DNA of 64,000 nucleotides. It comes from Gammaproteobacteria bacterium. GTDB lineage: Bacteria > Pseudomonadota > Gammaproteobacteria > Enterobacterales > Kangiellaceae. The translations under genes were made by a program, and so were the position numbers. Below the pieces are notes generated by a model, which worked only from the letters and a program-made list of their open reading frames with translations, searched no databases and was not told the origin of the DNA. The stretch is taken from contig JABXHY010000023.1 in NCBI GenBank assembly GCA_013373375.1, forward strand, positions 124,001-188,000, written 5' to 3'. Positions within the stretch are counted from its first letter, which is position 1. Each line of letters opens with the position of its first letter. Below, piece by piece: positions 21,937-43,331 of the stretch.

Positions 21937-22989
21937 CTAAATCATATCTTCGCCAACACCACCGAGAACTATTTCGCCAGCATCGGCCATACGTCTCGCA
22001 ACACTCAAGATTTCTTTTTGTGCATTTTCAACTTCACTGACTTTCACAGGCCCCATGGCTTCTAAATCATCTTTCATTAATTCAGCGGCACGTTTCGACA
22101 TGTTACTGAATATTTTATCTTTTATCCCTTCATCGGAACCTTTCAGAGCAAGCACTAATGTATCAGTTGAAATTTCGCGCAGTAACGATTGAATACCACG
22201 GTCGTCAACATCGACTAAGTTATCGAACACAAACATCATGTCCTGGATTTGTTGTCCGAGATCTTCATCAACTTCCTTTATATTTTCAATCAGCAAACTT
22301 TCAACACTGGTGTCTAAAAAGTTCATGATATCGGCAACTTTTTTAACACCGCCAATTTGTGCCGCTTTTGACGATGTTGATCCGGAAAATTGTTTTTCCA
22401 TAATCGTGTTAAGTTCTTGAAGAGCGGAAGGTTGAACCGACTCTAAAGCAGAAATTCTCAAAGCTAGATCAAGACGAACCTTTTCTGGAAACAGCGCCAT
22501 AATTTCGGCGCTTTGGTCAGGGTCAAGATAAGACATAACAATTGATTGAATTTGAGGGTGCTCATAACGAATGATATCCGCCACGGCTCTTGGATCCATC
22601 CACTTTAAAGTATCCAAACCCTTGGTATTCGCGCCAAGCAAAATACGATCGATCAGTGCGTCGGCTTTATCATCCCCTAGTGCAGACTTTAACGTATTCT
22701 TTATATATTCTTCGGTACCAATACCGATACCCGTTTGGTCTTCTACTTTTTCTAAAAATTCGTCCAGCACACCATCAACAGAAACTTTTTCGACATTTTT
22801 TAATGAAGCCATTGCAAGACCAATACGTTGAACTTCTTTTGGTCCCATATGTTTTAATACTTGCGCAGCATTTTCTTCGCCAAGCGACATTAATAAAACG
22901 GCAGCCTTTTCGGTACCTGAAAAGGCTGGACGTTTCTCCTTTTTCTCATCTTTTGCTTTGGCATCATTTGCCTGAGCTTGCTCACTCAT
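21937..22989 (-). CDS. fliG: FliG, motor switch protein
   Basis: FliG is the top C-ring protein that contacts the stator. The 350-residue product shows the EHPQ motif (YEHPQIQSIVMSYL) in the middle domain. The C-terminal charged ridge DEGIKDKIFSNMSKRA includes the torque residues. The first 20 residues are a charged linker. It starts within the last codons of fliF (8-base overlap). Confidence 0.98.
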   Translation of the reverse strand: MSEQAQANDAKAKDEKKEKRPAFSGTEKAAVLLMSLGEENAAQVLKHMGPKEVQRIGLAMASLKNVEKVSVDGVLDEFLEKVEDQTGIGIGTEEYIKNTLKSALGDDKADALIDRILLGANTKGLDTLKWMDPRAVADIIRYEHPQIQSIVMSYLDPDQSAEIMALFPEKVRLDLALRISALESVQPSALQELNTIMEKQFSGSTSSKAAQIGGVKKVADIMNFLDTSVESLLIENIKEVDEDLGQQIQDMMFVFDNLVDVDDRGIQSLLREISTDTLVLALKGSDEGIKDKIFSNMSKRAAELMKDDLEAMGPVKVSEVENAQKEILSVARRMADAGEIVLGGVGEDMI

Positions 22990-31403: not shown

Positions 31404-32507
31404 ATGATTCCAGTGTTAGTCCCAGATCTTCCTACTGCCGACAAGCTACTGCCGTTCTTCAAAGAAATCGATCACTCAAAACACTACACTAATTTTGGTC
31501 AATTTGAACAAAAGTTAACCGCTGATCTCGAGCGACATTATTTCAACCTACATAACACCAGCGCGAAGGCAACATTAACAAACTCTGGAACCAGTGCATT
31601 ACAGTTAGCCTTACTCTCATTAAATGCGGGACCTGGTACACGCGTGCTCGTTCCAAACTTTACTTTTCCAGCAACGGTAACCGCGGCTTTAACGCTTGGA
31701 TGTGAGATTGTACTCGGTGACGTTGATGATAAGACCGGATTTCTCGATATTGAGGATGCCCTAAGCCACAGTTCTGATTTCGATATTATGATCCCCGTGG
31801 CTTGCATGGGAAAAGTTTTACCCTGTAATGATTTCATTAAAATCGCAAACGAGCAAAACAAAGCATTAATCAGTGACTGTGCTCCTGCCTTTCCATATCA
31901 TCCTCTTTGCGGGCTCACTACATTTAGTTTTCATGCAACTAAGCCTTTTGGCATCGGTGAAGGCGGACTTCTATTAAATGAGCAAGAAATTCGTTCAGCT
32001 AAGCAAATTACAAACTTTGGCTTTCTTGAGCATCAAGTGAATAGCATAGGCAATAACTTCAAGCTAAATGAATACTCTGCAGCTATTGGACTTGCACAAT
32101 TGACTCGATTAACCGAGATAGGTCAACAGCGAAAAACTATTTATCAAAAACTAAAAGACTCTTTAAGTTATCTCGATGAAACTTGTTTCTTTTATTCTGA
32201 TGACGAAACAATATTGGAAAATTTTTCTTATCCTTATTTTATTTTAAGATTCGACGATCCAACTATTATCGAAGCAATAACGACTCAGTTCCAACAGGCG
32301 AAAATTGGGTTAAGACGATGGTATTACCCCACTATAATTGAACACCCCTATTTCTCTAATCATGAACGAATCAGGTCATTGAACGATCTTAAGACTTCCA
32401 AAAAGCTGGCCAGTCAACTTATCGGAATTCCAATGCATAACTTTTTGACCGATAGCGATATCAAACTTATCAGCAAGAACATAAAAAAAGTGATAAGTCA
32501 TGTTTGA
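31404..32507 (+). CDS. DegT/DnrJ/EryC1/StrS-family PLP aminotransferase
   Basis: Members of this family transaminate nucleotide-linked keto-sugars. The 367-residue protein has the PLP-binding lysine at residue 180 (TFSFHATKPFGIGEGG), the pyridine-nitrogen Asp158 (LISDCAPAF) and the phosphate-cup serines in TNSGTSALQLAL. It starts a four-gene operon with an acyl ligase, a NeuD-like acyltransferase and a cupin protein. A reasonable inference is that it forms an amino-sugar that is then N-acylated for flagellin glycosylation. The exact sugar cannot be told from sequence. Confidence 0.88.
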   Translation: MIPVLVPDLPTADKLLPFFKEIDHSKHYTNFGQFEQKLTADLERHYFNLHNTSAKATLTNSGTSALQLALLSLNAGPGTRVLVPNFTFPATVTAALTLGCEIVLGDVDDKTGFLDIEDALSHSSDFDIMIPVACMGKVLPCNDFIKIANEQNKALISDCAPAFPYHPLCGLTTFSFHATKPFGIGEGGLLLNEQEIRSAKQITNFGFLEHQVNSIGNNFKLNEYSAAIGLAQLTRLTEIGQQRKTIYQKLKDSLSYLDETCFFYSDDETILENFSYPYFILRFDDPTIIEAITTQFQQAKIGLRRWYYPTIIEHPYFSNHERIRSLNDLKTSKKLASQLIGIPMHNFLTDSDIKLISKNIKKVISHV

Positions 32508-34326
32508 GCTAATAGCTTATCATTCAGAAAAAGGCCGAAGAAATTCAACACTTGCATCAAACATCCTCGGTCATATAAAGCCTAACCATCGTTACATCGT
32601 CTTACTTAGTAATAGCTTAGAGCTGGCGATGATATTACTGGAGATTTATAAGCATAATGCGGTCGCAATTCCACTCTCTCCGCAAATTTCCAAAAGCCAT
32701 TTAGACCATATAAAATCGCACAGTAATGCTCACGGCATGTTCATTCAGAAAGTGGGATGCGTCAAATTTGAGAAACTAGATAAAGAAGAACTTGCAGCTT
32801 CGGACCAAAGATTCATTATTTACACCTCGGGCTCAACGGGTAACCCTAAAGGTGTCGTGCATAACAAAGAAAGTGTCGAAGCAAATGCCAAATCAGTCGC
32901 TATGCATCATAACTTCTCCTCAAACTCTCCACATGCAACCTGTCTTCCTCTTTTTCACTGTAACGCTTTAATGATGTCACTACTTGGATGCTACCTTTTT
33001 GATACTCCATTAATAATACTCGAAGATTTTTGCGCGGAGACTTACTTTAAAGCTATTAAACATCATAAAGTAGTAACCGCTTCGATTGTACCTGCATTGT
33101 TACATAAGTTACTTGAAAGCCCTCCCGAATGGCCAACCACGTTAAAGTACCTCATCACTGCAGCAGCGCCTTTATCAAAAGCTCTGGCGAAGAAGTTTTA
33201 TGACCAATATCAAAATAAATTAGTGCAAGGTTATGGATTATCAGAAGCGGTTAACTTTTCATTTATTATGCCTGCTCTATCAAAAAGAGAATTTATAAAA
33301 GAGTACATTTGGAATCACCCTCCAGTGGGTTTACCCGTCGAGGGTACTAAGTTTCGCTTAAATAGCGATCAGGAAGTTGAAGTATCTGGTGCTAATAACA
33401 TGATTGGATATTTGAATAACCCTGAAGCTAACCAAGAAGTATTCACCCAAGATGGCTGGTTAAAAACTGGCGATCTAGGTTATATGAGAAACAACTATCT
33501 TGTCCTCTCAGGGCGTAAAAAGGAAATTATTAATCGAGGAGGTGAAAGTTTACATCCAAATGAACTCGATGAAGTTTTCTCAGAGTTAATAGTCGATAGC
33601 AACTATTTCATCGTTCCCGTTCACGACGATGAGCTTGATTCTGAAATTGGCCTGATAATCGATGTGATGGACACTACACCTAACTTGAAAAGTATGGATT
33701 ATTACTTAGAACAAATCTATCGTGAGTCCTCCATCATTCCAGTTAATATCAGTTATCAACCTGCTCTTCGCACTTCAACTCGAAAGCCGCAAAGACTAAA
33801 AATGGGACAATCGCTAATTTCTCAGCCAGTTAGTTGGTGGGAGCTTCTCAAGATCTTTTGGAGTGAATCTCAATCAAACACTTTGTCATCAGATGAGCAA
33901 AAAGATCTTACACAATGTTTGAGAGCTATTATTCCTAATAAGCATGTAATAAAACTGAAGTCTTTAAAGTTAACAAACCAAAATCATTCTTTTACTCAGC
34001 TAATGAGAAAACTTGCAAATACAGGAATAGAGAGTTCGATTAATAGAAACCAACTAAACAACAATGAAGAAAGTTTATTTAATTATGACATAGATGCTAT
34101 TGAACCAAACTCAACGTTTTCTTGTTTAGTTATTCCTCCATCAATTCGTGATCACTTAAGCAATCCATTTTATCGTCTCGCGAAAACATACGGACATAAA
34201 TCACCATTAGCACAGCTTGCCGAACTTCCTGGTGAGCAGTTAAAAAACTTTAATCGTGTTCAGTGCTTACCTATTCACTACAAACAATACATATTTGCAA
34301 CTTTAATAATCATGGATAACTTATGA
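32500..34326 (+). CDS. AMP-forming acyl-CoA synthetase/ligase with extra C-terminal domain
   Basis: The 608-residue protein contains the ANL-family ATP loop YTSGSTGNPKGVV (108-120), QGYGLSEA, WLKTGDLGY and the hinge/Lys region SGRKKEIINRGGESLHPNE. It should activate a carboxylic acid as an acyl adenylate and pass it to CoA or a carrier. After about residue 440 it has a further 165 residues (from SWWELLKIFW) that I do not recognise; this part lacks an obvious carrier-protein DSL motif. It overlaps the aminotransferase gene by 8 bases and the next gene by 4. Confidence 0.85.
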   Translation: MFELIAYHSEKGRRNSTLASNILGHIKPNHRYIVLLSNSLELAMILLEIYKHNAVAIPLSPQISKSHLDHIKSHSNAHGMFIQKVGCVKFEKLDKEELAASDQRFIIYTSGSTGNPKGVVHNKESVEANAKSVAMHHNFSSNSPHATCLPLFHCNALMMSLLGCYLFDTPLIILEDFCAETYFKAIKHHKVVTASIVPALLHKLLESPPEWPTTLKYLITAAAPLSKALAKKFYDQYQNKLVQGYGLSEAVNFSFIMPALSKREFIKEYIWNHPPVGLPVEGTKFRLNSDQEVEVSGANNMIGYLNNPEANQEVFTQDGWLKTGDLGYMRNNYLVLSGRKKEIINRGGESLHPNELDEVFSELIVDSNYFIVPVHDDELDSEIGLIIDVMDTTPNLKSMDYYLEQIYRESSIIPVNISYQPALRTSTRKPQRLKMGQSLISQPVSWWELLKIFWSESQSNTLSSDEQKDLTQCLRAIIPNKHVIKLKSLKLTNQNHSFTQLMRKLANTGIESSINRNQLNNNEESLFNYDIDAIEPNSTFSCLVIPPSIRDHLSNPFYRLAKTYGHKSPLAQLAELPGEQLKNFNRVQCLPIHYKQYIFATLIIMDNL

Positions 34327-34985
34327 AAAATATATTGCTGATAGGTTCAGGTAGAAGTGCACAGTTTATTTTGGATATTGCACTGTTAAATGGATATCAG
34401 CTCGTTGGCTTTCTTGATGATACTAAAGACATTGGATCAATGGTTAGTGGAGCCCCTGTATTAGGAAGTTTATCCGATCTCATAAAGGTTCAGGAAAATT
34501 TGAACTGTGAATTGTTTATTTGTATTCAGCACCAAAGAGTTAAAGCACAGATATATGAAAGAATAAATCAACATCGACTTCCTCTTGCGACACTGATCCA
34601 CCCTCAAAGCTGTATTAGTCCATCAGCAAAGATTGAGCAAGGAGTGGCTATCAATGCTTACTCGACTGTTCAGTCAGGTGCCATTGTGAAATCTAATACA
34701 GTTATTGAAGATCTTTGCTCAATTGGCGTCAATGTCACTATCGACAACAGTTGCACGATAGCACCACAAACAGTCATCGCAGGTGGCTCTAAGTTAGAAA
34801 CCTCCTGTTTTCTTGGTGCAGGCGTCAAAGTTATTCCAGAAGTCACGCTTAAGCAGTTTACTAAAGTAGGCGCCGGTGCAGTTGTCATCAATGATACAGA
34901 GTCTCACAGCGTCGTAGCCGGAGTACCAGCAAAAAAAATCCGAAAGCTAAGTAAAGATGAGTATTTCACAGCCGATAACACTTAA
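34323..34985 (+). CDS. NeuD/PglD-family sugar acyltransferase
   Basis: The 220-residue protein starts with a Rossmann-like sugar-nucleotide-binding domain (MKNILLIGSGRSAQFILDIA). It continues as a left-handed beta helix with hexapeptide repeats (CISPSAKIEQGVAINAYSTV, GAIVKSNTVIEDLC, GAGVKVIPEV) and ends with the family VVAGVPAKKIRKL. Relatives acylate the amino group of UDP- or dTDP-amino-sugars. In this operon it probably uses the acyl group activated by the upstream ligase. ATG overlaps the ligase stop. Confidence 0.88.
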   Translation: MKNILLIGSGRSAQFILDIALLNGYQLVGFLDDTKDIGSMVSGAPVLGSLSDLIKVQENLNCELFICIQHQRVKAQIYERINQHRLPLATLIHPQSCISPSAKIEQGVAINAYSTVQSGAIVKSNTVIEDLCSIGVNVTIDNSCTIAPQTVIAGGSKLETSCFLGAGVKVIPEVTLKQFTKVGAGAVVINDTESHSVVAGVPAKKIRKLSKDEYFTADNT

Positions 34986-35004
34986 AATTGCGTAGGAGAA
35001 TATT

Positions 35005-35682
35005 ATGGATCTCGTAAATAACAAAATTGAAGATGTCTCGACCATAGAAAGCTTAAAAGAGCTATTTGGTGTGCAATATCTTGATCCTGGTCAGAGAGCT
35101 ATTGTGTCAGCTAACGAAAATGACCTCTACTTCTACACAGTTTACGCAGGTAAACATCAAGTAAAAGTGGAACTTGGTGATTGTTGTTATTTTTTAAGTG
35201 ACGACAAAAAAACAGCATTATTGCAAAGAGGCCCTTGTGAAGTTACATCGAGTCACTTAGCGACGGTTATCCGTGGTTACATGCCAGAGAATAAAACGTC
35301 CGAGATCAGAACTAAAACCAACCTCCCCTACGTAAACGGCTGTTCAACTAAACAAGTTTTCGCTCCCGATCGACTCGGAGATCCTACTTTACAGATATTG
35401 GATATTCCACCTTACTCTTCAGAACAAGCTCATCATATTCACTCTACCGTAAGAGTTGCTTACATTTTATCGGGAACAGGGCGAAGTATTGTCGGCATGA
35501 ACGATAAAAATATAGTAGAGTCTTTGTACCCAGGAAAAATTGTTGTGCTGGAAAAAATGTGCCCCCATCACTTCGAAACCGATGGCGAACATCTTATTGT
35601 GTTACCGCTGCATGTATTCAGTTCAGTTGGCGCGCTAGAAAACAATCATCCTATGTTTAACGGCACTCACATGACTGAGTAG
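35005..35682 (+). CDS. Cupin-domain protein of unknown function
   Basis: The 225-residue protein has a C-terminal cupin at about 125-215 with metal-type histidines in SEQAHHIHSTVRVAYILSGTG and CPHHFETDGEHLIVLPLHVF. The first 110 residues may be a second, degenerate cupin (RAIVSANENDLYFYTVYAG). It is the last gene of the amino-sugar operon, 19 bases after the acyltransferase with GGAG before ATG. It could be a sugar isomerase or epimerase, as cupins often are in such operons, but it does not look like the short FdtA/QdtA type. Confidence 0.7.
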   Translation: MDLVNNKIEDVSTIESLKELFGVQYLDPGQRAIVSANENDLYFYTVYAGKHQVKVELGDCCYFLSDDKKTALLQRGPCEVTSSHLATVIRGYMPENKTSEIRTKTNLPYVNGCSTKQVFAPDRLGDPTLQILDIPPYSSEQAHHIHSTVRVAYILSGTGRSIVGMNDKNIVESLYPGKIVVLEKMCPHHFETDGEHLIVLPLHVFSSVGALENNHPMFNGTHMTE

Positions 35683-35683
35683 G

Positions 35684-35701
35684 ACTATCTTTCGCGATAG
35701 T
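35684..35701 (+). terminator. Weak hairpin after the amino-sugar operon
   Basis: ACTATC and GATAGT pair around TTTCGC directly after the cupin gene stop. The stem is short and only ATTCTT follows, so terminator function is tentative. Confidence 0.35.
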
Positions 35702-35706
35702 ATTCT

Positions 35707-35753
35707 TCGATGGTGCAGCTCCTCGATGGTGCAGCTCTTCCACGATGCAGATC
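35707..35753. repeat. Tandem direct repeat of TCGATGGTGCAGCTC
   Basis: Two perfect 15-base copies start 16 bases apart (35707 and 35723), and a degenerate third copy (CGATGCAGATC) follows at 35743. The repeat lies in the 115-base gap between two convergent genes. No function is evident. Confidence 0.8.
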
Positions 35754-35797
35754 TTTTAAGAGCTCTGTGTTCGACGATCCAGCGCTGAACAAAGTAT

Positions 35798-36835
35798 TTA
35801 GAAATGAAACGGAATCTTATTTTCAGCGCTAGCTAAGGCTTTAGACCAAATATTAATTCTCTCCTGATCGGAAACTACACTTGGCTCAAAAGACTCTTTG
35901 ATAACATAGTCCGACCTTAAATTAAAATGCATCAAAGCCTCTCTAATTTGTTTTTCAGGTTCACGACATAATTCCTGATAATTAATGACTTTATACCGCG
36001 CTTCTGGCAGTTGATGTTGCGCATATCGACAAGCTTTATCAATTGATAACCATTGGGCAGCAATTTGCTCATTGTTATCTTCAAGGTTTTTAATTGCTTC
36101 GTATTCAGGTGGTTTAAAAGACCACCATGTTGACTCATCCTTATAAATTTTCCTACGTGCAGTTAAAATCGATTCACAATTATCAACCGGCTCTCTTTGA
36201 GTGAATAAAAACACGATGTTATTAGATAGCTTACTTAATTCAACTAAATTCCAATTCAACACCATTGCCTTTAATACAACCGGTGTATTATGGTAGTTCT
36301 GTAAAATCGCCAACTCATTATTAAATCGCTTTAAACTCGATTTTTGCCACTGTTGCTTCGAAAGAAAATGTGTCTGACCAAAGTTAAAATGAGTGTACCA
36401 AAAGTACCAAAAGACATTAGGTGCAAGTGGACCTTTTGATTTGCCAAACTCTGATTGAAAAGGTTCAATTACACCCGAACTACTTGATAATAGTTCGCCT
36501 CTATAATCAAACTCTGGGTTGAAAATCATGTCTTGAACTCGGCATCCTAGGCCGATACTCCGATAAAAGCGAGATAGAAAATTTGTTGGATAACAAAATA
36601 ATCCAGAGTGCGCTAGCAACTGCAATAATAAGGTAGAGCCTGAACGCGGTGGCCCAACTATCATGACGACAGGCTGGTTTAGATTAATGCTCTCGTCTTT
36701 AAAATAATATTGCTCCGCTAACTCAGTAGAAGCATTGATATCAGACAGTAGCTCTTCAAGTAGAAGATTCTTTTTGAAGGTTGCTAACTTTTGATTATTC
36801 GATGGCTTGCCCTTCACGAAATACCTTTCCGTCAT
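35798..36835 (-). CDS. PAPS-dependent sulfotransferase family protein
   Basis: The 345-residue protein has the 5'-phosphosulfate loop VGPPRSGSTLLLQLLA (residues 60-75) and a second PAPS-binding segment VFLFTQREPVDNCESILTARR. It also has KVINYQELCREPEKQI, typical of bacterial sulfotransferases. It overlaps the upstream glycosyltransferase-like gene by 41 bases, so the two are co-expressed. In this setting it may sulfate a glycan or tyrosine on flagellin. That target is inferred from the neighbourhood only. Confidence 0.85.
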   Translation of the reverse strand: MTERYFVKGKPSNNQKLATFKKNLLLEELLSDINASTELAEQYYFKDESINLNQPVVMIVGPPRSGSTLLLQLLAHSGLFCYPTNFLSRFYRSIGLGCRVQDMIFNPEFDYRGELLSSSSGVIEPFQSEFGKSKGPLAPNVFWYFWYTHFNFGQTHFLSKQQWQKSSLKRFNNELAILQNYHNTPVVLKAMVLNWNLVELSKLSNNIVFLFTQREPVDNCESILTARRKIYKDESTWWSFKPPEYEAIKNLEDNNEQIAAQWLSIDKACRYAQHQLPEARYKVINYQELCREPEKQIREALMHFNLRSDYVIKESFEPSVVSDQERINIWSKALASAENKIPFHF

Positions 36836-38669
36836 TTTCTTGAATTACTTGAGCATTCTGAAGTGTCCAAAGCAAAGTATGGTTGGTAACGCCACTCTCG
36901 CCCTGTTCTGGAGATTCAAACAAAATGTTCGAATTAAATACATCAACTAACTTTTTCGAATACTCTTCTCTGTAAGGTAAGTCTTCAATAAGTTTCAGCG
37001 ATTTAGAAAAATACTCGTCTAAGTCGTTAGCGACTTGTTCTGTAGCTAATCCAGCCCTTTCTAACATTGCTACATCGATATGACTAAATGCTTCCGGCCC
37101 GTCCATCACTACATAGGGAATTCCCAGCGCAAAACAGTCAATATTCGAGTTAGTGCCTCCAAACGGAAATGTGCCTAATCGAATATCACAATGACTGAGT
37201 TTTTCCATATACTCGTCATAGGGCATGACATTATATATTTCAAAATTATCAAAATACTGCTCTAAATGCCTTTTAAAATAATGTTTAAATATGCCTTGTG
37301 CGTGCGGAAAAAAGTGAAACTTCACCTGAATTGAGGATTGCTTATTAAGTTCTTGGCAAACTGACAGGAAAAATGAATTAATTTTCATGAACGAAGAAAT
37401 TATCGCGATATGACAAATACCATCATCGTTGACTTTTTTTGAGTAATTCACATTCGGCTTCTGATATCGAGTCCCAATCACTTTGGGTACTATAACTTTC
37501 TCAGTAAAGCACTCAGGATCATTAATCGATCCATTTAATACGAAATCAATTTCTTTCGATGCACTGGTAGCAGGATGGCCAACGCCCATGCATTGAACCG
37601 GCGCCAGTCTAAAATTGGCTAAAACGATACTCCAAGGCGCCATACCAATGCTTGGATAAAAAACCATATCAGGACGTTTACGTGCGAGTTTTTTTGCAAG
37701 ATCGGTATACAAATTACCATTAATAACTTCGTTGGTAACTTCATAAAACTCATCACACAAGGTTATTACATCATCATCAACTGCCGTTCTGTGAGCAACA
37801 AATATGACTTTGAAACTCTGCTTTAAACTAGCAATCATGGTTTTATGACAGCGATACATCGCATGACCCGTGGTAAACATTTCCAACATAACCATAATGG
37901 TTGGTTTGTTATTTATTTGTTTTAAGGAGGCGTCCTTATCGTCCGACGCTCCATCGCTTTTCGCATCTAGTAAATATTGCGTCTCATAGCGATTTTCTAT
38001 CATTCGATTTAACGACATTTTGATAACATGGCGTAAATCAGATACGAGATAACTGCAGTTCATCCAGGGATAGGTCACACGTTTCAACAACTCATTTGAT
38101 ATTTTTGCTTGCTGAGCCTTCATTGAAAATATCTCTATCAACTTGTCACGCAGTGGCTCATGAATCTCAGGCTTATGACCGGGCTCAATTGTCATTTGAA
38201 CGAGCGTGTGCGGTAAAATGTCAGTATTACTTAAAATTGCACCGATTAATTCAGGATTACTTTCAAGTGACAAAAATACTTGATAGCGCAACACCTTCTC
38301 TGCTTCGCTTGAGTACTGAAAATTTGATATCAAGGAAATAACATAATCCGGATTCGCAAATGAACTTCGCCATATCAGATAACTCAATTGCTGCTTATAT
38401 TGCAGAAGTCGCTCTAACAGTTCTTCGGTAAGTACCCAATGATTGTTGACTAAAAATGCAATTGCCGCAGCCACAAATCGATCGAGGGCTGAGTCTACTC
38501 TGGCAAAATAATCTTTCGCCGGCTCTCGTTCTAAAGGTATCAAATCTAATTTTTGATGGTGATGGAGTATTGTTTGGAGTTCATTAAAAGCGCGAGTGTA
38601 ATCTAGAGAGTAAACGGATTGCTCAAAGGATTCGAGTACCACATCTTGTTCGGCAACGTCCAGCGTCAT
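36795..38669 (-). CDS. HMW1C/OGT-like (GT41) soluble protein glycosyltransferase
   Basis: The 624-residue protein has an all-helical N-terminal half (about 1-235) and a GT-B catalytic part from about 240. The catalytic part includes VQCMGVGHPATSASKEIDF and LGTFPFGGTNSNIDCFALG followed by DGPEAFSHIDVAML. This last segment closely resembles HMW1C-type N-glucosyltransferases and SPINDLY/OGT enzymes, which glycosylate proteins directly in the cytosol. It is encoded 758 bases from, and divergently to, the first flagellin. AGGA stands 7 bases before the ATG. Flagellin is the likely substrate, but this is not shown. Confidence 0.82.
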   Translation of the reverse strand: MTLDVAEQDVVLESFEQSVYSLDYTRAFNELQTILHHHQKLDLIPLEREPAKDYFARVDSALDRFVAAAIAFLVNNHWVLTEELLERLLQYKQQLSYLIWRSSFANPDYVISLISNFQYSSEAEKVLRYQVFLSLESNPELIGAILSNTDILPHTLVQMTIEPGHKPEIHEPLRDKLIEIFSMKAQQAKISNELLKRVTYPWMNCSYLVSDLRHVIKMSLNRMIENRYETQYLLDAKSDGASDDKDASLKQINNKPTIMVMLEMFTTGHAMYRCHKTMIASLKQSFKVIFVAHRTAVDDDVITLCDEFYEVTNEVINGNLYTDLAKKLARKRPDMVFYPSIGMAPWSIVLANFRLAPVQCMGVGHPATSASKEIDFVLNGSINDPECFTEKVIVPKVIGTRYQKPNVNYSKKVNDDGICHIAIISSFMKINSFFLSVCQELNKQSSIQVKFHFFPHAQGIFKHYFKRHLEQYFDNFEIYNVMPYDEYMEKLSHCDIRLGTFPFGGTNSNIDCFALGIPYVVMDGPEAFSHIDVAMLERAGLATEQVANDLDEYFSKSLKLIEDLPYREEYSKKLVDVFNSNILFESPEQGESGVTNHTLLWTLQNAQVIQENDGKVFREGQAIE

Positions 38670-38733
38670 ATAGGATCCTGAATGTTATGAGTGATTATTC
38701 TTCTTGTTGCACCTAATAGTATAAGAAACTTAT

Positions 38734-38761
38734 TAAAGTTACACCTGTCGCTTGCCCTTAA
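38734..38761 (+). promoter_or_regulatory. Weak sigma28-like promoter upstream of the hairpin array
   Basis: TAAAGTTA is followed after 12 bases by GCCCTTAA, against the consensus TAAAGTTT-N11-GCCGATAA (two mismatches in the -10 and one extra base of spacing). Transcription would begin near the GC-rich hairpin at 38769. Confidence 0.35.
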
Positions 38762-38807
38762 AAGAGAAAGGGGGCTTTACAGCCCCCTACCATACGACCG
38801 AAGATTT

Positions 38808-38961
38808 TCTAATCAAGTGTTCTCAGCAATTGATAAGAAAGTGTCTTCAATATTGGCATTTTCCTAAACGATTGTTCTCAGCAATCATTTGGCGTAGCCA
38901 ACTGATGAGATTTAATAATCCAATGTTCTCAGCAAAGGATTCACTCATCGATTGGACAATC
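38808..38961 (+). repeat. TTCTCAG-loop hairpins, group A (upstream of the fliC1 promoter)
   Basis: Three exact TTCTCAG loops lie at 38820, 38875 and 38926, each inside an inverted repeat: 38808-38838 (10 of 12 pairs), 38866-38890 (8 of 9) and 38917-38941 (7 of 9, with an outer GATGAG/CTCATC stem). All three continue as TTCTCAGCAA. At 38950-38961 GATTG-GA-CAATC looks like the copy at 40459 without its loop. Loop starts are 55 and 51 bases apart. Confidence 0.75.
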
Positions 38962-39182
38962 ATCACACGATCTATCATGGGTATTTAAGATGAGTTCAAA
39001 TTGTTCCATTTCAGATAAAGCAACCTGCGTGCCAACTTTTAAAATACGCCTTTCTTAGCAATAAAAATGGAATTGAAGCATCGAGAACAGTGGTTTTGAG
39101 ATAAAACGCGGCGTGAATATCGATTTGGCAACGAGTAAAAGAGCCTGAGAGCGGCAACCAAAGGAAAAAATATTAAATTTAT

Positions 39183-39204
39183 CGGAAATTTTTTTCCGCT
39201 TTTT
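39183..39204 (+). terminator. Intrinsic terminator-like hairpin just upstream of the fliC1 promoter
   Basis: CGGAAA and TTTCCG pair around TTTT and are followed by CTTTTT. It would separate upstream transcription from the flagellin promoter that begins 2 bases later. Confidence 0.5.
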
Positions 39205-39205
39205 C

Positions 39206-39232
39206 TAAAGTCGACCTTTTCGCGGGCGATAA
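39206..39232 (+). promoter_or_regulatory. sigma28 (FliA) promoter of the first flagellin gene
   Basis: TAAAGTCG, an 11-base spacer and GGCGATAA closely match the FliA consensus TAAAGTTT-N11-GCCGATAA. The expected start is near 39240, giving a structured leader of about 190 bases before fliC. Confidence 0.85.
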
Positions 39233-39240
39233 CCCTATTG

Positions 39241-39357
39241 AACGAAGACATTCTCATCTTCGTTATGCCGTTCGGATGTTCTCAGTATCCCCGGTACATC
39301 GCTAAAACAGATTCTGGTTTAACGATGTATGAAAGAAATATTCTCAGTATTACTTTC
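39241..39357 (+). repeat. TTCTCAG-loop hairpins, group B (fliC1 leader)
   Basis: The leader starts with AACGAAGA/TCTTCGTT around a TTCTCA-containing loop (39241-39264). Then comes GGATG-TTCTCAG-TATCC (39274-39290), a different long hairpin (TACATCG/CGATGTA, 39295-39329) and GAAAGAAATA-TTCTCAG-TATTACTTTC (39331-39357, 9 of 10 pairs). Stem sequences differ while the loop is kept. A further variant, TTTG-TTCTCAA-CAAA, falls inside the flagellin codons at 39477-39491. Confidence 0.75.
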
Positions 39358-39426
39358 CATTTAATCACTTGGTTATCTTTGTAAACGTCGGGCTCAGCCT
39401 GTATCGAAGTAATTTAGGAGTTTAAA

Positions 39427-40248
39427 ATGGGAAATGTTATCTCAACTAATGTTGCATCCCTTAACGCTCAGCGTAATTTGTTCTCAACAAACAATGGACT
39501 GAGTACTACATTTCAACGCTTATCATCCGGGTTTCGTATTAATAGTGCGAAAGACGATGCGTCTGGTTTATTTATCTCAAACCAGTTGACTTCGCAGATC
39601 ATAGGCTTAAACACTGCAGGTCGAAATGCTTCTGATGGTATTTCAATTGCTCAAACAGCTGAAGGCGCTTTGCAAGAAGTGACCAACCTTTTGCAACGTA
39701 TGAGAGAAATCTCACTACAAGCAGCAAATGGTATTACTACAGATGGTGGCCCAGAGAAAAATGCTCTTGATGCCGAGTACCAACAACTATCTGCAGAAAT
39801 TACTCGAATTGCCACACAAACCAGATTTGGTAGTACTCTAATACTCGATGGTTCCGTGACCACTATCAATATTCAGGTTGGTGTAAATGCTGGCGAGCAA
39901 GTCTCTCTAACGTTATCCAATATCGCAGGTTTAACAGCCACCGCAGGCGCGATAAATACTGAAGCCGGCGCTACAGCCGCATTAGCCTTGATTGATGCCG
40001 ACATTATCAGCGTTGATAACGCTCGTGCAGGACTCGGTGCTGTGCAAAATCGCTTAACGTCAACGATTTCGAATTTGAACAGTGTCGTCGAGAACGCATC
40101 TGCTTCTCGATCAAGGATCAGAGACACAGACTTTGCCCTGGAAACATCCAATCTCTCTAAGTTCCAGGTACTGCAACAAGCCGGTTTAAGTGTTTTGAGT
40201 CAGGCCAATGCCAGTTCTCAGAACGTTTTAAGCCTACTTCAAGGATAA
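39427..40248 (+). CDS. fliC: Flagellin (first copy)
   Basis: Flagellin is the secreted filament subunit. The 273-residue protein has the conserved N-terminal D0/D1 domain (STTFQRLSSGFRINSAKDDASGL) and C-terminal D1/D0 (ASRSRIRDTDFALETSNLSKFQVLQQAG through SLLQG), joined by only a short variable centre, so it is a small flagellin. AGGAG lies 7 bases before ATG. It has its own sigma28 promoter and a terminator at 40301-40335. The two glycosylation-type gene groups nearby suggest it is modified. Confidence 0.98.
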   Translation: MGNVISTNVASLNAQRNLFSTNNGLSTTFQRLSSGFRINSAKDDASGLFISNQLTSQIIGLNTAGRNASDGISIAQTAEGALQEVTNLLQRMREISLQAANGITTDGGPEKNALDAEYQQLSAEITRIATQTRFGSTLILDGSVTTINIQVGVNAGEQVSLTLSNIAGLTATAGAINTEAGATAALALIDADIISVDNARAGLGAVQNRLTSTISNLNSVVENASASRSRIRDTDFALETSNLSKFQVLQQAGLSVLSQANASSQNVLSLLQG

Positions 40249-40300
40249 GACCATGAATCTCGCAAAGCCCCTACCCTACGACCGGTAAACGCTGTGCGTC

Positions 40301-40335
40301 AAAATCAATAGGATAGCCTCTATCCTATTGATTTT
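40301..40335 (+). terminator. Terminator after the first flagellin
   Basis: AAAATCAATAGGATA and TATCCTATTGATTTT form a perfect 15-base stem with loop GCCTC, ending in a T-rich arm. It lies 52 bases after the stop codon and should isolate the two flagellin transcripts. Confidence 0.8.
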
Positions 40336-40366
40336 ATTGTGGTTGTAAAAAAAGTTAAAAAAAATT

Positions 40367-40394
40367 TAAAGTCGCTATCCTAGATCGCCGATAC
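40367..40394 (+). promoter_or_regulatory. sigma28 (FliA) promoter of the second flagellin gene
   Basis: TAAAGTCG is followed after 12 bases by GCCGATAC. The -35 box is identical to those of fliC1 and fliD. The expected start is near 40400, giving a leader of about 100 bases. Confidence 0.8.
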
Positions 40395-40396
40395 CT

Positions 40397-40477
40397 AGTG
40401 TGAGGCAACTGATGTTCTCAGCTTCAGATGCCGGGCTTAATGTTCACACTTTGTAGATGATTGTTTCTCAGACAATC
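40397..40477 (+). repeat. TTCTCAG-loop hairpins, group C (second flagellin leader)
   Basis: An outer stem AGTGTGA/TCACACT (40397-40403 and 40444-40450) encloses GGCAACTGATG-TTCTCAG-CTTCAGATGCC (40404-40432, 9 of 11 pairs). A second hairpin GATTGT-TTCTCAG-ACAATC follows at 40459-40477 with a perfect 6-base stem, ending 15 bases before the GGAG ribosome site. The loops are 50 bases apart. The structure occupies most of the leader. Confidence 0.78.
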
Positions 40478-40502
40478 CATCAAAGGTAACTGGAGATCTA
40501 TC

Positions 40503-41276
40503 ATGGGTAGTGTAATTCAAACTAACGTTGCGTCTTTAGGCGCGCAAAAATCATTATTTAAAACTAACAACGAACTCTCAACGACCTTCAACCGATTGTC
40601 GTCTGGATTTCGTATTAACAGCGCGAAAGACGATGCGTCAGGCCTGGTCATCTCAAACCAGTTGTCGTCTGAAATCGGCGGTTACCAAGTAGCGTTAAGA
40701 AACGCTAACGACGGTATCTCATTTGCACAGGTTGCAGAAGGTGCTTTGCAAGAAGTTACCAACATCCTACTTCGGATGCGTGACCTTTCTTTACAAGCGT
40801 CTTCAGGTCAGGTACCTGCAGCCGGTGTAACAGCAATCGAAGCAGAATTTACAGCTTTGAACTCTGAAATCACTCGTATCACTGGAAATACAACTTTCGG
40901 TGGTTCCACTGTATTCGGCGCAACTATCAACGTTGTGGTTGAAGCAGATGGTGGCTCAGTAGCAGTTGCAGTTGGCACAGTAACAGCTCCTGGTGGCACT
41001 GCAGCGAATGGTCCAGCAGGTCTGGATACAGCTATCGCAGCGGTTGATACTTTGCGTGGTAACTTAGGTGCATCGCAAAGCCGATTAACGTCTGCAGCGA
41101 ATAACCTGTTAGCTGGTATCGAGAACTCTTCAGCAGCTCGTTCACGAATTCGAGATACTGATTTCGCTAGCGAATCCGCTAACTTGGCGAAGTTGCAGGT
41201 ATTGCAGCAGGCATCTTTCTCAGTGCTTGCGCAGGCTAATGCCTCTTCACAGTCAGTGTTATCACTGCTTCAGTAA
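40503..41276 (+). CDS. fliC: Flagellin (second copy)
   Basis: This is a 257-residue flagellin with the same D0/D1 ends as the first copy (STTFNRLSSGFRINSAKDDASGL; SSAARSRIRDTDFASESANLAKLQVLQQAS) and a different short centre rich in Ala, Gly, Val and Thr. ATG 40503 is chosen because GGAG stands 7 bases upstream and the protein then begins MGSVIQTNVASLGAQ like the first copy; the frame is open back to 40461. It has its own sigma28 promoter. Confidence 0.97.
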   Translation: MGSVIQTNVASLGAQKSLFKTNNELSTTFNRLSSGFRINSAKDDASGLVISNQLSSEIGGYQVALRNANDGISFAQVAEGALQEVTNILLRMRDLSLQASSGQVPAAGVTAIEAEFTALNSEITRITGNTTFGGSTVFGATINVVVEADGGSVAVAVGTVTAPGGTAANGPAGLDTAIAAVDTLRGNLGASQSRLTSAANNLLAGIENSSAARSRIRDTDFASESANLAKLQVLQQASFSVLAQANASSQSVLSLLQ

Positions 41277-41320
41277 CTACTGGCGGCTAATTAATATGCT
41301 TAGCTTATTAATTATCATAG

Positions 41321-41341
41321 GAAGCGAGCTCTGCTCGCTTC
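41321..41341 (+). terminator. Hairpin between the second flagellin and flaG
   Basis: GAAGCGAGC and GCTCGCTTC form a perfect 9-base stem with loop TCT, 44 bases after the flagellin stop. No T-run follows, so it may attenuate or protect the mRNA end and allow some read-through into flaG. Confidence 0.5.
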
Positions 41342-41366
41342 TCGCCGTTGCGAAAGGAATGTGACT

Positions 41367-41789
41367 ATGGCTATTTCACCATTGTCCAACAACTTTCAGC
41401 TGACCAGTTCAGATCGCTCAGCAACATCGAGTCCAAACTCTGGTCAAGCTATCAACAGTAGAAATGCTGTAGAAGCCGTTGTGGAACCGAAAAAGATTGC
41501 AAAAGCAGATGCGAGCACAACCAAAGCTCAACCTGATGCACAATCGCTCATCGAACTTAAAGCTGAACTAGACAGATTCACTGAGTCGAGCCCAGCTATT
41601 CAACGTAGCTTACGTTTTAAGATAGATGATGCTACCGGTCGAAATGTTATAAGTGTTGTGGATCGTCAGACCAATGAAACGATTCGCCAAATTCCTCCTG
41701 AAGAATTGTTAACACTTTCTCGTCGGCTGAAAGAAATAAATGACGCAAGAGATTCCTCGAGCGGAGTAATAATCAAAGCCGAAGCTTAG
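41367..41789 (+). CDS. flaG: FlaG, filament-length-related protein
   Basis: FlaG-family proteins are encoded next to flagellins in polar flagellates and affect filament length. The 140-residue product has the conserved C-terminal domain (SLRFKIDDATGRNVISVVDRQTNETIRQIPPEELLTLSRRL) after a Ser/Ala-rich N-terminal half. AAGGA precedes the chosen ATG; a GTG at 41361 is also in frame. Confidence 0.92.
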   Translation: MAISPLSNNFQLTSSDRSATSSPNSGQAINSRNAVEAVVEPKKIAKADASTTKAQPDAQSLIELKAELDRFTESSPAIQRSLRFKIDDATGRNVISVVDRQTNETIRQIPPEELLTLSRRLKEINDARDSSSGVIIKAEA

Positions 41790-41825
41790 CAAAAGCAGTA
41801 ACGCTAGGCTTCGGCCTGATTTTTG
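41778..41825 (+). terminator. Terminator overlapping the flaG stop codon
   Basis: GCCGAAGCTTAGC pairs with GCTAGGCTTCGGC (12 pairs plus a G-T) around a 12-base loop, followed by CTGATTTTT. The left arm contains the last codons and stop of flaG. Confidence 0.65.
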
Positions 41826-41891
41826 CAGTCTTATCGCTGCAAAAGAATGAATAACCAACGTGCGTTATAGTAAATTCGGCTCAATTCTTTT

Positions 41892-41918
41892 TAAAGTCGT
41901 CGATTTGAATGCCGATAT
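41892..41918 (+). promoter_or_regulatory. sigma28 (FliA) promoter of fliDST
   Basis: TAAAGTCG, 11 bases and GCCGATAT match the FliA consensus at the correct spacing. The expected start is about 45 bases before fliD. Confidence 0.85.
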
Positions 41919-41969
41919 TACTAGCAATGACAGTGCACAGTTGCACACAGTAAATTTAAAGAGAAGATT

Positions 41970-43331
41970 ATGGGTTTAATTACATCAGCAGGTATTGGTT
42001 CAGGCATCGACCTGGAATCAATTATCGAGGCGTTAGTCACCGCTGAAAGACGCCCAAAAGAAATTTCGCTTAACCGACTCGAGCAGCGTACCAATACAAC
42101 GCTCTCTGGTTTAGGCAAATTACAATCAGCGTTGTCCAATTTAGAAGATTCGTTAGCTAATTTAACCGAAGCTAACTTTAGAACTCGAACAGCAACATCG
42201 TCTAATGAATCGCAACTGACTGCGTCAGCTAATTATTTAGCCTCTGAAACCAATTTCGCAGTCACCATCAATCAAACGGCAACGTATACCGAGTTAAGTA
42301 CTAATGTCATTGCAGGTGATGCGACCACTCAACTTGGTGCTGGAAACCTTACGTTCAACTCTACTGGCGGTGAAACTTTTTCAGTTGCCGTTGGCGCAAC
42401 CGATTCGTTAGCTGACATTGTTTATGCCATCAATAATAAAAGCGACAATTTTGGTATTAGCGCAACATTAGTCAATGGTGACTCAGGAACCAAAATTATT
42501 TATCGCGGAATCGATACCGGTGACAATGCTGACTTCACTGTCACCAATGACAATGCCAATTTAGCACAAATTTCTGATGGAAATGGTGGTGCACTGAATG
42601 TTGACTCGACCGCACAAAACGCCTCCATTACTGTGTCAGGATTAACGATAAGCAGCGAAACCAATACTTTTAACAATCCGGTTCAGGGAGTTGACTTAAC
42701 CTTAGCCGATGATGCAGTGGCAGGAACCGTTAACGTCAATGTCACTAAAGATAAGCAAGCGGTAAAAGACAATATTCAAGAGTTTGTCGATAACTATAAT
42801 GCGTTTATCCAAATCGCTAATCAGCTGGGTTCTGCTCAGGACGGTGCTGAAGGTGAATTACTAGGTGACTCAACTTTACGAAATATTGTTCGCCAGGTAA
42901 CCAGTCAAATATCCAATACCGTTGGCAGCGCAAATCCAGATTTTAATACACTTTCTCGAATAGGTATTACCACAGAAAGAGATGGTACTTTATCGATTGA
43001 TTCAACTGAACTTGATTCAATTCTTAACTCAAACTTTGATGCTGTCGGGACTGTATTTTATGCGACCGATGGAATAGGCACGTCAATTAGCACAGCGATC
43101 ACACCTTATGAACAATTAGCTGGTTTGATTGATAAACGAGAAGAGTCTTTACAGTCGATTCTTAGTCAAATTCAAACCGATCGTGATAACCTTGATTATC
43201 GTATTAATGCGTTAGAAGAATCATTACGTTCAAAGTTTGCGGCAGTTGACTCGCTAGTGTCACAGTTTAATTTTACAGGTACTTACCTGGAGCAACAATT
43301 TGCTGCATTAAGTGCAAAACAATCGGGTTAA
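41970..43331 (+). CDS. fliD: FliD, filament cap protein
   Basis: FliD forms the cap under which flagellin folds. The 453-residue protein has the N-terminal domain (ITSAGIGSGIDLESIIEALVTAERRP) and C-terminal coiled region (QLAGLIDKREESLQSILSQI through LSAKQSG) typical of the family. It begins the fliD-fliS-fliT run with AGAAG before ATG, behind a sigma28 promoter. Confidence 0.97.
   Translation: MGLITSAGIGSGIDLESIIEALVTAERRPKEISLNRLEQRTNTTLSGLGKLQSALSNLEDSLANLTEANFRTRTATSSNESQLTASANYLASETNFAVTINQTATYTELSTNVIAGDATTQLGAGNLTFNSTGGETFSVAVGATDSLADIVYAINNKSDNFGISATLVNGDSGTKIIYRGIDTGDNADFTVTNDNANLAQISDGNGGALNVDSTAQNASITVSGLTISSETNTFNNPVQGVDLTLADDAVAGTVNVNVTKDKQAVKDNIQEFVDNYNAFIQIANQLGSAQDGAEGELLGDSTLRNIVRQVTSQISNTVGSANPDFNTLSRIGITTERDGTLSIDSTELDSILNSNFDAVGTVFYATDGIGTSISTAITPYEQLAGLIDKREESLQSILSQIQTDRDNLDYRINALEESLRSKFAAVDSLVSQFNFTGTYLEQQFAALSAKQSG

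Follow-up and report, generated by a model that had tools for sequence, protein, structure and literature searches.

A predicted small RNA with repeated loops complementary to flagellin leader hairpins in Kangiellaceae

The recurrence of one 7-nt loop in hairpins around both flagellin genes of a member of the Kangiellaceae raises the question of what partner these hairpins have in the cell. The window analyzed here is a stretch of 64,000 nt, part of a 4.53-Mb genome (G000), for which a sequence-only reading had described seven exact TTCTCAG copies (38820, 38875, 38926, 39279, 39341, 40415, and 40465), each in the loop of an inverted repeat. All seven are found at these positions, in 7-nt hairpin loops with 6 to 8 of the 9 flanking positions paired and with stems unrelated to one another. 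The remaining nine copies in the window, including the two in flagellin codons (40215 and 41217), have only 2 to 5 of 9 pairs, in line with the description of such copies as lacking clear stems. The total of 16 against 9.7 expected is a mild excess that is reached in 5 of 100 shuffles, so the signal lies in the clustering and the stems and not in the count. Among the irregular copies, TTCTCAT at 39251 is a genuine hairpin (stem AACGAAGA/TCTTCGTT); TTCTCAA at 39481 is present but lies inside the fliC1 coding sequence and has a short stem, and the supposed loop-less copy at 38950 is located within a small RNA (sRNA) predicted on the minus strand. The treatment of all copies as one hairpin set did not hold. 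There are two facing sets: four sense-strand copies (39279 to 40465) in the flagellin leaders, and a trio (38820 to 38926) that is the reverse strand of the sRNA gene and does not consist of leader elements (Table 1).

The proposal that fold and loop are selected as a multicopy element of flagellin leaders was borne out, as each flagellated Kangiellaceae genome in the comparison has the hairpins at its flagellin loci. A lack of conservation before the flagellin genes of relatives had been named in advance as the result that would sink the idea; the comparison was run, and the idea survived it. At 21 flagellin loci from the window and its relatives, TTCTCAG occurs 174 times on the sense strand, in 125 cases with 6 or more of the 9 positions paired; at 76 flagellin loci elsewhere, the figure is 12 of 123 copies (both strands, with a maximum of 6). 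TTCTCAG is also the commonest 7-nt loop on a strong stem in the 21 pooled loci, with 95 cases against 12 for the runner-up. The leader stems use all pair types and change in sequence from hairpin to hairpin, and sliding the partner by 1 to 3 columns lowers pairing from 79% to 37 to 47%, although the rows of this test were picked for pairing and the unselected counts (125/174 versus 12/123) are the fairer test. A search of 94 other flagellin loci for comparable repeated-loop systems with loops of 5 to 8 nt found none, and few repeated loops (mainly at L154 and L142). Beyond the flagellin locus, the hairpin model gave only chance-level matches in the window's genome (E of at least 0.2), with no other leader target. 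Taken alone, the fliC2 leader is no more stably folded than its shuffles (z = -0.40), and its second hairpin is outside the minimum free energy (MFE) structure. The structural case is weakest here; cotranscriptional folding or contact with a partner may be what best allows these hairpins to form.

Tandem TTCTCAG copies about 49 to 56 nt apart recur among the relatives, in several genomes away from flagellin genes. A tandem pair of this kind had suggested a sponge for a CsrA-like protein, an idea that was dropped given the minus-strand terminator and sigma54 promoter in the alignment. When aligned, the tandem copies resolve into a minus-strand gene with a sigma54 promoter, a segment complementary to a flagellin start (the anti-start segment), two or three CTGAGAA hairpins, and a terminator; GTCGTACGGTA is found in the gene in most of the 19 aligned genomes. 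The loop of the resulting RNA, CUGAGAA, is the exact complement of the leader loop UUCUCAG. The strands can be told apart because a G.U pair, when read on the opposite strand, becomes an A.C mismatch. In the leaders (88 hairpins, picked without strand preference), the sense strand has 110 G.U pairs versus 30 A.C mismatches, and the 41 sRNA hairpins read on the plus strand have 7 G.U versus 52 A.C, so the RNA of this gene is the minus strand. The binomial P values for the asymmetry, 6e-12 for the leaders and 1e-9 for the sRNA, are overstated because the genomes are related. Across 18 aligned sRNA cores, 20 of 29 pairs have changed on both sides with 90% of the cells paired, and RNAalifold without an input structure recovers the same hairpins along with the outer GAAG/CTTC helix. 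The window's own sRNA folds at -71.4 kcal/mol (z = -4.07), in a structure that exposes its three CUGAGAA loops and leaves most of the anti-start segment unpaired. No ORF is conserved in it by length or frame, which indicates a noncoding RNA, and the gene has a promoter and a terminator independent of its target, as expected of a trans-encoded sRNA. We regard the existence of a selected minus-strand sRNA gene as nearly certain. In one genome (G009, L175:5227-5291), an extra CTGAGAA lies between the sRNA hairpins and the terminator, and the 3' part is longer.

Table 1. Predicted and annotated features of the flagellin locus and the facing sRNA gene (window coordinates)
Feature	Coordinates	Strand	Basis
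Intrinsic terminator of sRNA	38760..38788	-	prediction; conserved in 19-genome alignment
Predicted sRNA gene, ~250 nt (5' ~39008, 3' ~38760, both ends predicted)	38760..39008	-	19-genome alignment, fold, model
Conserved 3' segment CGGTCGTATGGTAGGGG, complementary to fliC1 3'UTR element	38784..38800	-	19-genome alignment
First sRNA hairpin, CTGAGAA loop, outer GAAG/CTTC helix	38809..38837	-	alignment pairing, RNAalifold, fold
Second sRNA hairpin, CTGAGAA loop	38866..38890	-	alignment pairing, RNAalifold, fold
Third sRNA hairpin, CTGAGAA loop	38917..38941	-	stem pairing, fold
Anti-start segment (plus strand GATCTATCATGGGTA)	38969..38983	-	same sequence as fliC2 start 40495-40509
sigma54-type promoter TTGGCACGCAGGTTGC (-24/-12)	39020..39035	-	TGGCAC-N5-TGC in 19/19 aligned genomes
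fliC1 promoter, sigma28-type, TAAAGTCG-N11-GGCGATAA	39206..39232	+	sequence
fliC1 leader hairpin, variant loop TTCTCAT	39242..39265	+	sequence, fold
fliC1 leader hairpin, TTCTCAG loop (copy 39279)	39274..39290	+	stem pairing, fold
fliC1 leader hairpin, TTCTCAG loop (copy 39341)	39331..39357	+	stem pairing
fliC1, flagellin	39427..40248	+	Flagellin_N + Flagellin_C
fliC1 3'UTR element CCCCTACCCTACGACCG	40268..40284	+	complementary to sRNA 3' segment
fliC2 promoter, sigma28-type	40367..40394	+	sequence
fliC2 leader hairpin, TTCTCAG loop (copy 40415)	40404..40432	+	stem pairing, fold
fliC2 leader hairpin, TTCTCAG loop (copy 40465)	40459..40477	+	stem pairing; absent from isolated leader's MFE
fliC2 start region, complementary to sRNA	40495..40509	+	exact match, duplex energy, cross-species comparison
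fliC2, flagellin	40503..41276	+	Flagellin_N + Flagellin_C

The unpaired 5' segment of the sRNA is antisense to the Shine-Dalgarno/AUG region of fliC2. In the whole genome, the 15-mer GATCTATCATGGGTA has just two exact occurrences, one in the sRNA gene and one at the fliC2 start. An exact-match search established this and replaced a ranking of the genes in the window by the total energy of duplexes over 120-nt stretches. The ranking was uninformative because a long site adds up the energies of several helices; it gave -44.7 to an unrelated start at 22989, below the -41.4 of fliC2. Between the sRNA and the fliC2 start, duplex energies are -27 to -48 kcal/mol and fall below the lowest of 200 shuffles in 19 of 19 genomes; with the fliC1 starts, they are near the shuffle level in most of the 19. 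The start and the sRNA change together, with GGTTCAGGAGATCTACAAA in both in G009, GGAGATTTATCATGGGTAATG in most Aliikangiella-type genomes, and GGAGACCTATCATGGG in family f14. In the duplex core (positions -9 to +4, 20 genomes), there are 12 differences. Six of them preserve pairing as G.U and none would produce C.A; the other six are transversions, all located at the outer edge or in G013, an indel carrier. Target complementarity is thus kept despite sequence change, as is typical of trans-encoded sRNAs.

A further contact involves the other end of the sRNA, whose conserved, unpaired 3' segment is complementary to CCCCTACCGTACGAC, which most relatives have, in this or a near form, downstream of their first flagellin gene. 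In G006, the 3'UTR element and the sRNA 3' segment have both changed to CCGCACA; the element was not found in G003, G004, and G049. In relatives, the 3'UTR motif (window positions 40268 to 40284; for example, L039, reverse strand, 5371) extends as CAACTTTAGGTG, and its conservation runs beyond the part that is complementary to the sRNA. The contacts follow one another in the same order on the mRNA region as on the sRNA. A gene derived from a backwards-read copy of the fliC1-fliC2 intergenic region would be expected to show this, and the sRNA gene may have had such an origin.

The distribution of the sRNA follows that of flagellin within the family. A covariance model found one strong copy in each of 19 out of 19 flagellin-bearing Kangiellaceae (E of 1e-10 to 1e-33; 7e-21 at the window locus with model R2), and the Kangiellaceae that have no flagellin gave some weak matches only (E of 0.03 to 0.07), none of them convincing. 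When 395 genomes were drawn evenly from the order, matches came from Kangiellaceae, three genomes of family f14 (E of 1e-14 to 1e-22), and one doubtful case. A class-wide draw under strict filters, in which few Kangiellaceae relatives were included, gave a match to the window's own genome only. A genome of a third family (G039) has leader hairpins together with a diverged sRNA locus, which carries a sigma54-like TTGGCAT-N5-TTGC, an anti-start segment, one CTGAGAA hairpin, and a terminator. Rfam 15 had nothing at or near the gathering score on either strand of window positions 38000 to 42000. In three genomes, G011, G013, and G022, the sRNA gene is located just upstream of and in line with a gene for a FleQ/FlrA-like sigma54 regulator (L173:4684-6502, L174:2881-5150, and L183:4870-8673), with a PAS histidine kinase next in L174 and L183.

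Sequence comparison thus gives an sRNA gene together with its strand and fold, and three kinds of site to which the RNA is complementary. In these swimming marine bacteria, the sRNA most likely pairs with flagellin mRNAs during flagellar assembly and so restrains the synthesis of flagellin. The sRNA would be made by sigma54 RNA polymerase with the sigma54-dependent genes of the hook and basal body, probably under flagellar activators given its place upstream of the FleQ/FlrA-like gene in those three genomes. Its 7-nt loops would kiss those of the leaders, also 7 nt long, which would align the anti-start segment with the fliC2 Shine-Dalgarno/AUG and block ribosome binding, and the FliC2 protein would be withheld until the sigma28-driven flagellin mRNA outnumbers the sRNA. 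As fliC1 has the loops and the 3'UTR element without an anti-start match, it would be regulated more weakly or act as a decoy, and this different treatment may order the two flagellins in time. Complementary sequences do lie in hairpin loops of both partners, as in known kissing pairs; since both loops are invariant, the loop-loop pairing itself has no covariation support. That kissing contacts anchor the sRNA on the flagellin mRNAs and block fliC2 translation is a reading to which we assign a probability of about 0.83. We give even odds to a broader one, in which the repeated loop (CUGAGAA/UUCUCAG) is a shared address on interchangeable stems, with kissing picking the mRNAs and a separate antisense segment silencing one of them so that the two flagellins are ordered in assembly.

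The partner of the leaders had been left open as a protein or a small RNA. A trans-acting partner is probably right, and the evidence points to a small RNA, with an FlbT-like protein unneeded to account for the loop. An invariant loop on a variable stem is nevertheless typical of protein sites, the leader hairpins are rightly placed for such a role by the logic of FlbT, CsrA, or FliW, and a protein could also assist the sRNA. We find it rather improbable, however, that the UUCUCAG hairpins are primarily the sites of an RNA-binding protein, with the upstream copies as more sites or a sponge. Selection on the upstream set acts on the opposite strand, with the complementary loop, and one protein would not bind both alike; the anti-start and 3' segments would be left without a role; and GGA, which would mark a CsrA/RsmA site or a CsrB-type sponge, is absent from the UUCUCAG and CUGAGAA loops, so that this is not a CsrA system. 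The sequence-only reading had also allowed a role at the DNA level, but the G.U/A.C asymmetry runs in opposite directions in the two sets and points to RNA on opposite strands. The same asymmetry makes it very improbable that the copies are a cruciform, a recombination or transcription factor site, or a functionless, decayed inverted duplicate of the flagellin control region. The plus strand of the sRNA region is ordered like the fliC1-fliC2 intergenic region and may stem from a duplication, but promoter, fold, and terminator are conserved even where the gene is far from flagellin, and the sRNA co-occurs with flagellin.

The direction of the effect is a separate matter. With the same sRNA and contacts, the flagellin mRNA could be activated or stabilized, or the flagellin mRNAs could titrate the sRNA away from another target. 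Sponge mRNAs are known, and fliC1, with its loops and 3'UTR element but no anti-start match, would fit such a role. We consider this unlikely, as the pairing spans the Shine-Dalgarno sequence and AUG of fliC2, which is normally repressive, and the window's genome has no other leader target; it is from this position that we infer repression and not activation. A cis-antisense RNA of the RNA I/II type was rejected, since the sRNA gene is outside the flagellin transcription units and, in several genomes, far from flagellin.

Several known systems share parts of this arrangement. RNA I and RNA II of ColE1 kiss through fully complementary hairpin loops of about 7 nt but are cis-antisense and complementary throughout, whereas the Kangiellaceae sRNA would act in trans and matches its targets only in loops and short segments. 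In Caulobacter, the protein FlbT acts posttranscriptionally on the fljK leader in a manner tied to assembly. The regulon is treated in PMC3930126. The likeness is in the control through a flagellin leader, the partner being a protein there and a matching RNA here. In Escherichia coli, OxyS is a trans-acting sRNA that blocks fhlA translation via loop contacts (PMC8383071). This trans-acting block through loop contacts is what it has in common with the mechanism proposed here. OxyS/fhlA has two unlike contacts and no repeated loop cassette, and its promoter and pathway differ from those of the Kangiellaceae sRNA. RNAIII of Staphylococcus aureus comes close, with several loops that kiss hairpins in the 5' region of rot and, for coa, a duplex at the start together with a loop contact close to the 3' end (PMC8383071). 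The sequence, loops, and regulon of RNAIII are unrelated, however, and only the Kangiellaceae pair has one 7-nt loop repeated in both partners and target hairpins that are a multicopy element of their own. In Campylobacter, CJnc230/FlmE and CJnc170/FlmR are sRNAs inside the flagellar hierarchy, and CJnc230 is RpoN dependent, is processed from the flgE mRNA, and represses flgM and Cj1387c (PMC11187230). The regulon logic is thus common to both, but the targets differ, and CJnc230 has neither leader hairpins nor a flagellin start duplex.

To our knowledge, few sRNAs are known inside the flagellar hierarchy. Our searches of the open-access literature found no account of the motif with flagellin, of flagellin sRNAs with kissing or RpoN, or of Kangiellaceae sRNAs like this one, and no sRNA that acts directly on flagellin translation via a dedicated series of target hairpins. 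The present case most plausibly represents a new family of sRNAs, one that has target hairpins of its own, and a new variant of kissing-loop regulation. If confirmed, it would be a sigma54-to-sigma28 checkpoint made of RNA and a compact natural example of repeated loop-loop recognition in which address (the loops) and action (the anti-start duplex) can be mutated separately. A further suggestion is that sRNAs may originate from a flipped copy of the target's own control region.

Adjoining the flagellin genes, window positions 32500 to 38669 hold genes for acyl-CoA-ligase-like, acetyltransferase-like, cupin-like, sulfotransferase-like, and GT41/NGT-like proteins, possibly a flagellin modification island; the names come from reading the sequences, and the GT41/NGT-like protein, the only one searched, gave weak matches. 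A small genome of family f3 (G038, 2.2 Mb) has 22 flagellin matches on many contigs. Repeats of other kinds were seen at G000:C8:7618-7696, where TTCTCAG recurs every 36 nt (perhaps a protein repeat), and at G013:C11:9599-9650, which holds a tandem TTCTCAGTACTTTTT array.
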